NCBI GenBank assembly: GCA_009758405.1
Contig: WSBC01000016.1
Coordinates: forward strand, 1 to 64,000
Origin: Methanobacteriota archaeon
GTDB lineage: Archaea > Thermoplasmatota > Thermoplasmata > Thermoplasmatales > ARK-15
Length of the DNA stretch: 64,000 bases
Reading direction: 5' to 3'
Part shown: positions 56,237 to 63,499 of the stretch, one piece after another
How the letters are laid out: every line of letters begins with the position of its first letter
Position numbering within the stretch: position 1 is the stretch's first letter
The notes under the pieces: generated by a model
The model's input: only the letters and a program-made list of their open reading frames with translations
Told to the model about the DNA's origin: nothing
Databases searched by the model: none
Position numbers and translations under genes: made by a program

Positions 56237-56563
56237 TTAATCACCCCTCACCTTTTCAATTGCAACAAATGAAACAGTTTTTGAAATTGGCCTGCATTCC
56301 ATGAATTTTATCAGGTCACCTTCCCTTAACTCAAGACAATCTGGTGCATGCACATGATACTTGCCCCTCCTTTTCTCGTACCTTTCATATTTTTTATTGT
56401 AATGCAGGTAATCCCTCACCACCACCACAGTCCTCATCATCTTTGCACTCACCACTCTTCCTTCAAGCATCTGTCCCCTCACCTTCAGATTACCATGGAA
56501 GGGACAGTTGGGATCATTGCACTCCTTTTTAGGCTCCTTTACCTCTATTCCTATGTTCTTCAT
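56237..56563 (-). CDS. rpsQ: 30S ribosomal protein uS17
   Basis: 108 residues, the longer archaeal/eukaryotic form. N-terminal [62 protein letters not shown] has the OB fold and C-x4-CPFHG lead-in. Early 16S rRNA binder. ATG overlaps the Rnp1 stop by four bases. Confidence 0.96.
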
Positions 56564-56799
56564 CTTCTACCACCCCTTGAGATCCTGTCTATAGGTCTAC
56601 CATAAAGTTCATTACCGTAGAAAATCCTACCATTAATAAGCAGGTTAACAGTATCCTTTGGCACTACCCATCTCTTCTTTCCCTCAATAACAATTGTATT
56701 CTTTGTTTCATCTATTATTTTTCCAGATATACCCAGAAGGTTTGGATTGGATGATTCAATGACGCTAGCCTCCTTTCCAATCAAGTTTATCCAGGTCAT
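56560..56799 (-). CDS. rnp1: ribonuclease P protein component 1 (Rpp29/Pop4 homologue)
   Basis: 79 residues. Sm-like fold of archaeal Rpp29: NLIGKEASVIESSNPNLLGISGKIIDETKNTIVIEG then KRWVVPKDT. Binds the RNase P RNA with Rpp21, for tRNA 5' maturation. Its position between uL29 and uS17 is a well-known euryarchaeal arrangement. Short tail of basic residues ([12 protein letters not shown]). Confidence 0.94.
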   Translation of the reverse strand: MTWINLIGKEASVIESSNPNLLGISGKIIDETKNTIVIEGKKRWVVPKDTVNLLINGRIFYGNELYGRPIDRISRGGRR

Positions 56800-59237: not shown

Positions 59238-59495
59238 TCAGAATATTCCTATCCTCACGGCTATTTCATCAGCCCTGTATTCGGGCTTTAGTTTTACAAT
59301 TGCCTTTTTACCCTCTCTCGTAATAAGCATGTTAACGCTATCCACCTTTACATTGAATATCTTTTCCACTGCCCATTTTACCTGTTTTCTGTTTGCATCA
59401 CGCCTCACTATAAAGGTAAGCTTATTCTCCTTTTCAATAAGCATCATTGCCTTTTCTGTCACGTAAGGTTTTAAGATTACCTCATACTCATTCAT
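59238..59495 (-). CDS. rplW: 50S ribosomal protein uL23
   Basis: 85 residues. [57 protein letters not shown] is the full conserved fold; ends VRIGIF. Exit-tunnel ring and SRP docking. ATG 59495 preferred to the TTG at 59504 as it overlaps the uL4 stop. Confidence 0.95.
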
Positions 59496-60256
59496 AATAT
59501 CCAACCCCTTATCTCATCAATTGCACCCTTTGAAAATAATACAAGCCTACCCGGCATTGCACCAGGTGCAAGTATCTCTGTATTAATTTCAGATGGGGTA
59601 ATAACCTCAACACCAGGTAGATTGCTGAATGATTTTAACGCCTTCTCCTTATTCTTTAAAACAATAAGTATACTCTTAGGTGTATAATATTTCCTTCCCC
59701 TTGTCTTTCCTCTTCCAGCCCTTATCTTCTCACCATTTTTGGCCCTGAGAACATCCTCCTCAAGACCTAGTCTTCTAAGTATTGTCAGTGCATCTGAGAC
59801 CTTTTCCACATTTTCAATAGTATCCTCTACAACAACTGGTAGTGTAAGATCCTCCTTAAACCTGTGGCCCCTCTTTCTTACCATCTCCCTGTTAGCAGTC
59901 TGTGCTAGAGCAGAGAGCTTTGACAACAACTTTTCCTTTTTATTCATCTTCCTCTGCCATTTTCTCTGGGTTGTTGGTGCATGTGCAGTTCTTCCACCCA
60001 CCATATTGTTCATTATTACACCGCGATCACCATTGGGTATCCTTGGCACCCTGGCCCTACCATGGTTTGGTCCCCAGTTATGTCCCACCCTCCTAAGGCC
60101 TGCCATGGGTGAAACACCGTAGGGCTGTCTTGAATTTGATTGCATTATCTTTACTGCCCTCCTAATCAGGTCAGGCCTAAATGGATAATCAAATGCCTTT
60201 GGAAGCTGTAGCTGTGATTTTACATTTCCCTCGATGTCATAAAGGTTAACAATCAT
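59492..60256 (-). CDS. rplD: 50S ribosomal protein uL4
   Basis: 254 residues. Starts [20 protein letters not shown], with the exit-tunnel loop [29 protein letters not shown] and [23 protein letters not shown], and ends with [15 protein letters not shown]. Archaeal/eukaryotic form. In bacteria L4 regulates its own operon; whether this happens in archaea is unknown, but the structured leader ahead of this operon makes it worth asking. Confidence 0.96.
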
Positions 60257-60259
60257 AAT

Positions 60260-61270
60260 TTACACCCCCTGCTTTGAGCTCCTTGAAACATATACCAACC
60301 TGAGATCCTTTACCTCTTCCTCGGTAGGCCTAATTGGATCCCTGAATCTAACAAGCCTCTTTGTTGAGCCCGGTATGGATCCATGTATGAGAACATAGGG
60401 ATTTCTGACAAGGCCATAATGTAGAAATCCACCCTGGGGATTAATGTCCTCCTCAAGCTCATTTCCCTTCTTTTGTACAACCCTCAATATCCTTTTGTTA
60501 TATTCTGTTCTCTGCTGGAAGCCCATCTGTCCCGCCATTGGAACAGTATACATCACCCAGTTTGGATGCCAGGGGCCTAGTGTGCCTATCATCCTCCTAT
60601 GTTTCCTGTTCTTCCTTGGGAGAAGTTTTATTCCAAACCTTTTGACATGCCCCTGGAAGCCCTTCCCCTTTGTTACTGCTATTACATCAACAAGCTTTCC
60701 AGCTTCTGAAAAATCATTGAAATTTATCTCCTTTCCAAGCTTCTGTATTGCATAATCTATCCTCTGTTCCACGGTACCCCCTCCCACCCTGATCTCCATT
60801 ACTTCAGGTGTTTTTGATGGGACTCCAGTGACAAGATGGGGTTTAGTATAAGTTATTAACCTTACTTCGTCTATTGATGATTTGTCAATGTTCTTCAGCC
60901 TTTCTTCTGGACTGTTTTTAGGTACATTCAATCTCCTTGCAAGCTCCTTATCTATGTTGTTTGTCCATATTTCATTTGCCACCTGGAGGCCGTAAGTAGT
61001 TTTCCTGTAAAGCCTAATACCAAGTACGCCCATTGGGGGTACCTCAACAACTGTAACGGGCAACATTATTTCCTGGCCTGCAGTTTCACTCTTCTTCCTC
61101 CAATCAACCATAAGAATGTGTGTCATGCCCACCTTATATCCCGCAAAACCCTGTATTTTTGGGCCCTTCTCTATTTCGGGCCAACTCTTTATATGTGCAA
61201 CTATATCTCGCGCTCTCTTCCTCGGATAGTATGCCATAGAGCCATGTCTCGAATGATGAGGCGTAGCCAT
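60260..61270 (-). CDS. rplC: 50S ribosomal protein uL3
   Basis: 336 residues, archaeal form. Contains SMAYYPRKRARDIVAHI, FAGYKVGMTHILMVD, GKGFQGHVKRFGIKLLPRKNRKHRRMIGTLGPWHPNWVMYTVPMAGQMGFQQRTEYNKRIL. It is the first gene of the leftward ribosomal operon. ATG 61270 follows GGAGG after a leader of about 120 bases that can fold into several stable helices. Confidence 0.96.
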   Translation of the reverse strand: MATPHHSRHGSMAYYPRKRARDIVAHIKSWPEIEKGPKIQGFAGYKVGMTHILMVDWRKKSETAGQEIMLPVTVVEVPPMGVLGIRLYRKTTYGLQVANEIWTNNIDKELARRLNVPKNSPEERLKNIDKSSIDEVRLITYTKPHLVTGVPSKTPEVMEIRVGGGTVEQRIDYAIQKLGKEINFNDFSEAGKLVDVIAVTKGKGFQGHVKRFGIKLLPRKNRKHRRMIGTLGPWHPNWVMYTVPMAGQMGFQQRTEYNKRILRVVQKKGNELEEDINPQGGFLHYGLVRNPYVLIHGSIPGSTKRLVRFRDPIRPTEEEVKDLRLVYVSRSSKQGV

Positions 61271-61285
61271 ATTTATTTCCTCCTT

Positions 61286-61393
61286 TTTCCAGCCGCCACC
61301 CGTGACACTTACTCACTCCCCAGAATTATTAAATTCGGGGATTGAGAACGGGAATCCTATGGATTATCCCTCTGTGTCTGGGTGGTTTTTTGG
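61286..61393 (-). promoter_or_regulatory. structured 5' leader of the uL3 ribosomal operon
   Basis: Read on the minus strand, from about 61393 to the uL3 ribosome-binding site. A long-range helix pairs CCACCC-A-GACAC (61385-61374) with GTGTC-AC-GGGTGG (61308-61296), eleven base pairs with a small internal loop. It encloses two hairpins. One (61370-61350) pairs GGGA..ATCC with GGATTCCC around an ATA loop. The other (61346-61312) pairs CTCA with TGAG, then CCCCGAATT with AATTC.GGGG around TAAT with one bulged T. Together these make a compact three-helix junction of about 90 bases ending just before a GGAGG. It is not part of a known gene; a regulatory RNA or ribosomal-protein site is suggested. 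Confidence 0.65.
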
Positions 61394-61412
61394 AGTTAGG
61401 CAGATTAATATG

Positions 61413-61427
61413 TAGATATATAAAAAA
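61413..61427 (-). promoter_or_regulatory. TATA box of the ribosomal protein operon
   Basis: Minus-strand TTTTTTTATATATCT; its centre lies about 27 bases before 61393, where transcription is expected to start, only eight bases ahead of the first paired stem in the leader. The same AT stretch could also serve the divergent nmd3 gene. Confidence 0.5.
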
Positions 61428-61483: not shown

Positions 61484-62512
61484 ATGAAATGTGTCGTTTG
61501 TGGTAGGAATGAGGCCAAGATAAACGGCCTTTGCGAGGAATGTTACCTGAATAGTAGAAATTATATTAAGCCACCGAGGAATGTTGAGATAATAAAATGC
61601 CCAAGGTGCGATGGAATAAGGGTAGGCAACACATGGTATTATGGAAAAATCTTGGAGGATGCTATAGCCGAATCACTTGAAAAAAACTCTAAAATACTTG
61701 ATGACAGGATAGATGTAAAAATACAGTATAGTGTGATCAATACACAGAATATGCTTGATGTTGACTATATCCTAAAATTAAACAACGTTGAAAAGGTGGA
61801 AAAACATCTTGTTCCCTTCATTTTTAAAAAACAGCTATGTCCTAGATGTAGCAGGTATTCAGGTGACTATTTTGAATCAATTATTCAGCTAAGGTCTGAT
61901 GGAAGACTTAAAGATGATGAGTTGCTGGACTTAGAAGAATTTGTTTTCAAGAATGTTGATATTGAGAGAAAAAAGAATCCAGATCTTTATGTACTTAAAA
62001 AGGAAAGCAGGGATGGAGGTATGGATTTTTATCTTAGCTCAAACTCAAGCGGAAGGGTGATTGCCAGAAAGATTGCTGACAGGTATGGGGCAACGGTAAG
62101 AGAATCACCTCATCTTGCAGGTGTGAAGGAGGGGAAGGATTTTTACAGAATTACATTTTCCGTCAGGTTACCGGATTATAGGGAGGGGGATTTCATAAAG
62201 GTGGGAAACAATGCATACATGGTGGTAGCCATAAGGAAGGGACAGGTAAAGGTGATTAATCTAAAAAACGGATATGTTGAAAGCATCACACAAAAGGACC
62301 TTAGGGACGGGGGATACAGGATTTTTGCCAGGAAGGGGGATGAGGTGGGTGCAATAAAGCTTTACGAGGAAGGAGAATACATACACTTTATGGAGACAAA
62401 AAACTACAGGACACTTGTGATAAAAAAGCCCTTTTTTAAGGTAAATAGGGAATTTTTAATAGTTCTTGATGGTGAAGAAATTTACATTGTACCAGAAACA
62501 ATGAATTTTTAA
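61484..62512 (+). CDS. nmd3: NMD3-like 60S-type ribosome export/assembly protein
   Basis: 342 residues. N-terminal zinc sites: C3/C6 (KCVVC), C17/C20 (LCEEC), C39/C42 (KCPRC) and C119/C122 near QLCPRCSRYSG. Later GKDFYRITFSVRLPDYREGDFI and the eIF5A-like region fit archaeal Nmd3. In eukaryotes it exports the large subunit; in archaea it is thought to help its assembly. Head to head with the ribosomal operon, fitting co-regulation. Confidence 0.92.
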   Translation: MKCVVCGRNEAKINGLCEECYLNSRNYIKPPRNVEIIKCPRCDGIRVGNTWYYGKILEDAIAESLEKNSKILDDRIDVKIQYSVINTQNMLDVDYILKLNNVEKVEKHLVPFIFKKQLCPRCSRYSGDYFESIIQLRSDGRLKDDELLDLEEFVFKNVDIERKKNPDLYVLKKESRDGGMDFYLSSNSSGRVIARKIADRYGATVRESPHLAGVKEGKDFYRITFSVRLPDYREGDFIKVGNNAYMVVAIRKGQVKVINLKNGYVESITQKDLRDGGYRIFARKGDEVGAIKLYEEGEYIHFMETKNYRTLVIKKPFFKVNREFLIVLDGEEIYIVPETMNF

Positions 62513-62536
62513 ATAAATAAAGGTTATACACTTTTT

Positions 62537-63499
62537 GTGATTTCAAAGGCAATAAAGGTAAAAAGGAATGAAATATCAAGGATCATGGAATTTCTCAAAA
62601 ATGAGGGCCTTTTGATTAAGGGCCTCAAGATAATTAAGGATGGTGATTTTTCCTTTTTACCTGTAAAATCTGTGCCTGAAGGCTACGACTCATATGAAAT
62701 GAATTTTGAAGAGATACCAAGAATAAGAAGTTATATTGATCTTGTTAAAATACCGGAGGATTTAAAAAAATATCTGCCCAGGTCCATGGATATCGTGGGA
62801 AATGTTGCAATAGTTAAGCTGAATGAAAATATAATGGAATATTCCAGAGAGATAGGAAATGCAATAATGCTCTTCAATAAAAATATTAAAACTGTAGCAC
62901 TTGACAGGGGTGTAAAGGGGGAGTTTAGGGTAAGGGATCTTGAGGTGATAGTTGGTGATGGCCTGGAAACTGTGCACAGGGAAAATGGCATCAGAATTTT
63001 CATAGACTTGGGGAATGTTTATTTTTCACCTAGGCTTTCAAAGGAAAGATCAAGGATTCTCTCCCTCGTCAGGGATGGTGAAACAATCCTTGACCTTTTT
63101 TGTGGTTCAGGGGCCTTCTCAATATTGATAGGTAAAAAAAGGAAGGTGAAAATATATTCAGTTGACAAGAATCCGCGTGCAATAGAATGCCTGAGGGAAT
63201 CAATAAGAATAAATAAGATCGATAACATTGTACCTATTCTCGATGATGTGAGGACAGCTGTAAATTACATTCCAAATGGTGATAGGGCAATCATGGACCT
63301 ACCCATGGAATCAATAAACCTCCTTGATTTTGTAATTAATAAATCCTCATATTTCCATATTTATTACAAAACAAATTCTCCGGATGATGTAAAAAATTTT
63401 ATAGAGGGAAAGGGGTTAAAAGTGGAGAATTATGGCCTTGTACATGGATATTCGCCTTCCGAGGGAATGTACTATTTTGATGCAAGGAGAGGTGCATAG
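62537..63499 (+). CDS. trm5: Trm5-family tRNA (guanine-N1-)-methyltransferase
   Basis: 320 residues. N-terminal D1-like segment, then a class I SAM domain: ETILDLFCGSGAFSILIG (motif I), KIYSVDKNPRAIECLRESIRINKID (II), VPILDDVRTAV, and IMDLPMES as the Trm5-type NLP motif. Expected to make m1G37 in tRNA. The start is GTG 62537, about 25 bases after TTTAAATAAATA in the nmd3 end, so it may be leaderless. Followed by an MFS gene two bases on. Confidence 0.9.
   Translation: MISKAIKVKRNEISRIMEFLKNEGLLIKGLKIIKDGDFSFLPVKSVPEGYDSYEMNFEEIPRIRSYIDLVKIPEDLKKYLPRSMDIVGNVAIVKLNENIMEYSREIGNAIMLFNKNIKTVALDRGVKGEFRVRDLEVIVGDGLETVHRENGIRIFIDLGNVYFSPRLSKERSRILSLVRDGETILDLFCGSGAFSILIGKKRKVKIYSVDKNPRAIECLRESIRINKIDNIVPILDDVRTAVNYIPNGDRAIMDLPMESINLLDFVINKSSYFHIYYKTNSPDDVKNFIEGKGLKVENYGLVHGYSPSEGMYYFDARRGA

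Follow-up and report, generated by a model that had tools for sequence, protein, structure and literature searches.

The window, by which we mean the whole stretch of 64,000 nucleotides that was analysed, carries an archaeal ribosomal-protein operon on its minus strand. The genes run in the order uL3, uL4, uL23 and uL2, with uL24 and eS4 further down. A gene for the RNase P/MRP p29 subunit (PF01868) also lies within the operon, at 56560-56799 on the minus strand. Divergent from the operon, 61484-63499 on the plus strand encodes an NMD3 homologue (PF04981, a family of large-subunit export/assembly factors), followed by a Trm5/TYW2-type tRNA methyltransferase (PF02475). The region upstream of uL3 contains a structured element, and the features that concern us here are the following.

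61413 to 61427, minus strand: TATA-like box AATTTTTTTATATAT, read in the sequence; predicted transcript start at about 61393.
61295 to 61386, minus strand: the whole conserved leader element, matched by covariance model R1 at 57.9 bits (E 5.7e-13, the E-values of models R1 and R2 being rough because calibration was short); sole match in the genome.
61374 to 61385, minus strand: 5′ strand of helix P1, CCACCC-A-GACAC, from the fold and from covarying pairs over 100 sequences.
61350 to 61370, minus strand: hairpin P2, GGG-AUAA-UCC/GGA-UU-CCC, from the fold.
61312 to 61346, minus strand: hairpin P3, variable in sequence, with UUYUGG frequent on its 3′ side, from the fold.
61296 to 61308, minus strand: 3′ strand of P1, GUGUC-AC-GGGUGG, from the fold and from covarying pairs over 100 sequences.
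61279 to 61283, minus strand: Shine-Dalgarno site GGAGG, read in the sequence.
60260 to 61270, minus strand: uL3, first gene of the operon (Pfam PF00297, E 1.9e-90).
59492 to 60256, minus strand: uL4 (Pfam PF00573), candidate ligand by precedent.
59238 to 59504, minus strand: uL23 (Pfam PF00276), candidate ligand by a possible rRNA likeness.

The initial annotation of this DNA described an 11-bp closing helix around two hairpins, and folding the minus strand from 61400 to 61270 reproduces this arrangement exactly. In the fold P1 consists of 61385-61380 and 61378-61374 paired to 61308-61304 and 61301-61296, and is interrupted by an unpaired A61379 opposite A61303-C61302. The minimum free energy is -47.8 kcal/mol (z -4.44) and none of 200 dinucleotide shuffles was equally stable, in agreement with the earlier opinion that such an arrangement is unlikely to arise by chance. 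The TATA-like run at 61427-61413 is also present as described. The GGAGG before uL3 is where it was reported, at 61283-61279, but its spacing to the ATG (A at 61270) is 8 nt and not 16.

Relatives of this genome show that the element is not a local peculiarity. We located uL3 in 104 of the 117 genomes of the order and retrieved the upstream DNA. Nearly all of these upstream regions contain, as judged by eye, a recurrent motif of CC-A-[GU]AC[AG]C, GGGCAAUGC..GCA-[AU]-CCC, a variable hairpin and GYGU[AC]-AC-GG; published contigs from Poseidoniia carry it as well. Model R1 was built from an alignment of 48 sequences, 46 from the order and two from Poseidoniia, and Thermoplasmatota genomes were searched with it. 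Within the order it has matches in 85 of 117 genomes; for the phylum the figure is 283 of 390 sampled genomes (103 of 155 genera), a set that includes many incomplete drafts and in which the individual check of negatives covers family f7. With very few exceptions, in the order as in the phylum, there is one copy per genome. Of 60 copies from other families, 59 have the uL3 start immediately 3′ of them in the same orientation, as do copies in members of the order; this bears out the reading of the structure as a conserved, cis-acting part of the uL3 operon. A folded three-helix RNA, probably a leader, is kept at the same place in most sampled Thermoplasmatota lineages.

The common core consists of an outer P1 of any sequence, an A/AC loop, an inner P1 of 5 bp, a short junction, P2 and a free P3. 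Single-sequence folds from many families give the same three-helix plan. The phylum consensus for P2 is GGG-CAA-UGC/GCA-[A/U]-CCC, with the loop CAA and a first inner U-A pair each found in 87 of 100 sequences; the window's own family has GGG-AUAA-UCC/GGA-UU-CCC instead. In family f4 the P1 loop is shifted and model scores are only weak, but the fold is the same. Leaders of family f22 (L203 and L206) have P1 and P2 but lack a clear P3, and L203 folds as P1 plus P2; P3 is therefore dispensable, and this natural deletion marks P1 and P2 as the likely binding core. Absences are also seen. The motif is not visible upstream of uL3 in the one genome of family f3 (G023), and the element was not found in family f7, where 15 genomes were checked and uL3 was present in all. 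The TATA box of f7 is about 50 nt before the ATG, hence the 5′ UTR is very short, and the leader is lost in this family. Several f7 genomes (L215-L218, L222 and L225) share a palindrome-like CTCTACGCGCGCGTTC some 90-150 nt upstream of the uL3 start codon, a possible DNA-level control site replacing the RNA.

The evolutionary evidence for a folded RNA comes from covariation, which the initial annotation had proposed looking for among relatives and which turns out to be strong. In A2, an alignment of 100 sequences, standard pairs occupy 99.1% of pair cells, and both sides have changed in 148 cells compared with 35.6 +/- 4.5 when partners are shuffled, while sliding the partners leaves just 24-41% paired; these counts lean towards the P1/P2 structure, because the alignment was fitted to it. 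Four extra outer P1 pairs provide an unbiased check, since they are absent from the model: they are paired in 72-74% of sequences, and each shows 35-42 double changes. Counted on the taxonomy, which serves as a crude tree, there are at least 90 double changes from one Watson-Crick pair to another, against 17-35 for slid partners. The A2 pairs 6-100, 7-99, 11-94, 20-45 and 21-44 are invariant and uninformative either way. As P3 could not be aligned it was folded separately, and it beats mononucleotide shuffles in 99 of 100 relatives, with a mean z of -2.7.

Where the element sits in the transcript can be judged from promoter-like words. TATA-like boxes are found upstream of the motif in 96 of 148 cases, with a peak at 55-35 nt and almost none closer, and in the relatives they never fall inside the element. 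Transcription should therefore start just before P1, rather than downstream of 61374, the outcome that had earlier been named as speaking against a leader. From these box positions the element should belong to the mRNA leader (5′ UTR). At its other end the relation to the ribosome-binding site differs between families. In the Thermoplasma-like family f6 the ACGG and the ATG are 9-21 nt apart, so the 3′ strand of P1 abuts the Shine-Dalgarno site, and two f6 leaders that were folded have that site mostly paired. In other families a spacer of 60-90 nt separates the element from the ATG and frequently contains a hairpin that could pair with the ribosome-binding region. Second hairpins specific to a lineage occur between element and start codon, close to the Shine-Dalgarno site, for example in f36 (L147, L148, L163 and L171) and f8 (L145 and L155). 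In the fold of the window's own leader the Shine-Dalgarno site is mostly open, with a probability of being unpaired of about 0.7-0.9, so that blocking it would require steric hindrance or a change induced by a protein. The window has no terminator- or attenuator-like U run after the element, which makes translational control more likely than attenuation.

The initial annotation did not recognise a known Rfam family here, and a scan of the leader indeed returns none at gathering score; this needs amending in one respect, as RF03135 shares the architecture even though its model misses the sequence. A borderline L4 leader has been described upstream of rplC-rplD-rplW-rplB in Archaeoglobi, and the same study lists no such leader for Thermoplasmata (Eckert & Weinberg 2020, PMC7247131); we found no later report of one in the open-licence literature. 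This is the Rfam family RF03135, 'L4-Archaeoglobi'. In its consensus fold P1 is interrupted by a bulge of AA in the 3′ strand, and the other helices are a P2 of CGGGU-CAA-UGGCG/UGCCA-C-GCCCG and a P3 hairpin. This family and the Thermoplasmatota leader share topology, loop positions, an A-rich bulge on the 3′ side of the closing helix, a P2 whose CAA/N loop is flanked by a GGG/CCC helix and a U-A pair, and the uL3 operon. The likeness holds for the phylum consensus, whereas the copy in the window has AUAA/UU and not CAA/N. Furthermore, the P1 of RF03135 has a bare AA bulge where Thermoplasmatota have an A/AC loop, and P3 is shorter and variable in Thermoplasmatota, which are a different phylum.

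The RF03135 model exceeds its cut-off in none of 17 genomes and, with the threshold relaxed to E 10, still reports no hit on the leaders; run on 20 leaders it gives no match at E<=0.5. Its best Thermoplasmatota matches, at 14-20 bits, are below the cut-off of 34.5 and away from the leaders, and we discarded them. Given the same plan and the lack of a model match, we call the leader architecturally the same kind as RF03135, probably homologous as a distant relative, rather than a demonstrated member. Convergence on the same protein ligand, as opposed to common descent, would account for the silence of the RF03135 model on the leaders and for the shortness of the shared loop letters, but topology, loop positions and operon all coincide, and we regard it as somewhat unlikely. 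As an aside, the six RF03135 control genomes included a single archaeon, Haloferax volcanii, and one unspecified control was over the cut-off; the family may reach Halobacteria.

Since a conserved cis-RNA, present once per genome, precedes the main ribosomal-protein operon, we consider it very likely that the element is an autogenous ribosomal-protein leader (r-leader) that blocks translation initiation. The initial annotation had leaned the same way, and its reading gains from the covariation and the conservation before uL3, with regulation by a ribosomal protein as the inferred part. We propose that an operon-encoded ribosomal protein in excess over rRNA would bind the P1/P2 core and stabilise P1, whose 3′ strand is close to the uL3 Shine-Dalgarno site. 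The ribosome-binding region would then be held closed, initiation would be blocked, and the remaining genes of the operon would fall by coupling. Points that weigh on the other side are the mostly open Shine-Dalgarno site in the fold of the window's leader, the lack of a significant rRNA match, the silent RF03135 model and the absence of the element from f7. In the families with a 60-90 nt spacer the second hairpin is possibly an alternative output stage on the same sensor. By analogy with the S10 operon of E. coli, and with the assignment of RF03135, uL4 would be the likeliest ligand.

Another candidate ligand is uL23, which is encoded in the operon and binds domain III of 23S rRNA. The suggestion is that P2 imitates a 23S hairpin, GG-CAA-UG..CA-G-CC, which we take to belong to domain III. 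The archaeal 23S consensus in Rfam has cucGG-CAA-uG..Ca-G-CCgag, and most copies of the leader have a P2 of GGG-CAA-UG..CA-[A/U]-CCC. The window's own P2, however, carries AUAA in place of CAA, and CAA/[A/U] loops in rRNA are no commoner than expected. Searches of rRNA with the leader models gave no significant match, scans of 16S and 23S for the P1/P2 loops gave matches no more frequent than in shuffled sequence, and the strict hairpin motif has a chance expectation of about 0.2 in 16S plus 23S by our own estimate, so the likeness is a lead only and we think uL23 unlikely to be the ligand. Several other resemblances were rejected. The best rRNA match of R1 is antisense to the rRNA and was dropped for that reason; likenesses to LSU 194-233, LSU 251 (GGGCAAACCGAAUCCC) and 16S GUGUAACGG were judged to be chance, the Rfam structure pairing the LSU stretches differently; and the likeness to ACGGUC at the LSU 3′ end is unconserved in the Rfam consensus. 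Viral carriage was likewise set aside, as none of 10 IMG/VR pattern matches adjoins uL3 and just two have weak model scores.

A riboswitch-like element that senses a small molecule or an ion would also suit the highly conserved letters of the internal loop and junction next to a free P3, as these could form a ligand pocket. Against this, the element is confined to the front of the ribosomal-protein operon, once per genome, its architecture matches a proposed r-leader, and P3 can vanish entirely, and we find the idea very unlikely. A conserved DNA site, be it an operator or a promoter element, would fit a position just downstream of a promoter, but is strongly disfavoured, to the point of being scarcely credible, by the compensatory changes in P1 and P2, the asymmetric strand-specific loops, a P3 that varies freely yet folds, and the location 3′ of the TATA boxes.

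The autogenous r-leader, then, is the reading with which we compare known systems. In E. coli the S10 operon leader mediates repression by the operon's own uL4 (PMC10931766). It too heads an operon with uL3, uL4, uL23 and uL2, although uS10 is the first gene there and uL3 is the first in Thermoplasmatota; the window lacks an attenuator-like U run after the element, and the two leaders are not known to be homologous. The Rfam models of ribosomal-protein leaders, that of E. coli S10 included, leave the leader unmatched. Autogenous control of an archaeal ribosomal-protein operon has a precedent in the L1 operon leader (PMC10931766), a different RNA in a different operon, in which the mRNA site of uL1 closely mimics its rRNA site. 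The archaeal S15 and eL15 r-leaders are predictions backed by covariation (Eckert & Weinberg 2020, PMC7247131); they belong to other genes and lineages, and the window's leader has no Rfam match.

Known r-leaders are typically narrow in distribution. If the present reading is true, few known r-leaders would be as old or as widespread as this one, kept through most sampled lineages of the phylum and with an apparent relative in Archaeoglobi. The most far-reaching version is a joint claim: an r-leader that predates the split of Thermoplasmatota and Archaeoglobi, is present once per genome in at least two archaeal phyla, and uses a P2 that mimics the 23S domain-III hairpin to let uL23 control the operon. 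Taken as a whole this is quite improbable. Thermoplasma-like and Aciduliprofundum-like organisms are tractable cases for studying ribosomal-protein feedback in archaea, its ligand and its evolution, with f22 as a natural minimal version and f7 as a natural loss. In shape the element matches a little-studied RNA that until now had been predicted in Archaeoglobi alone, and for a leader of this kind it is unusually widespread.
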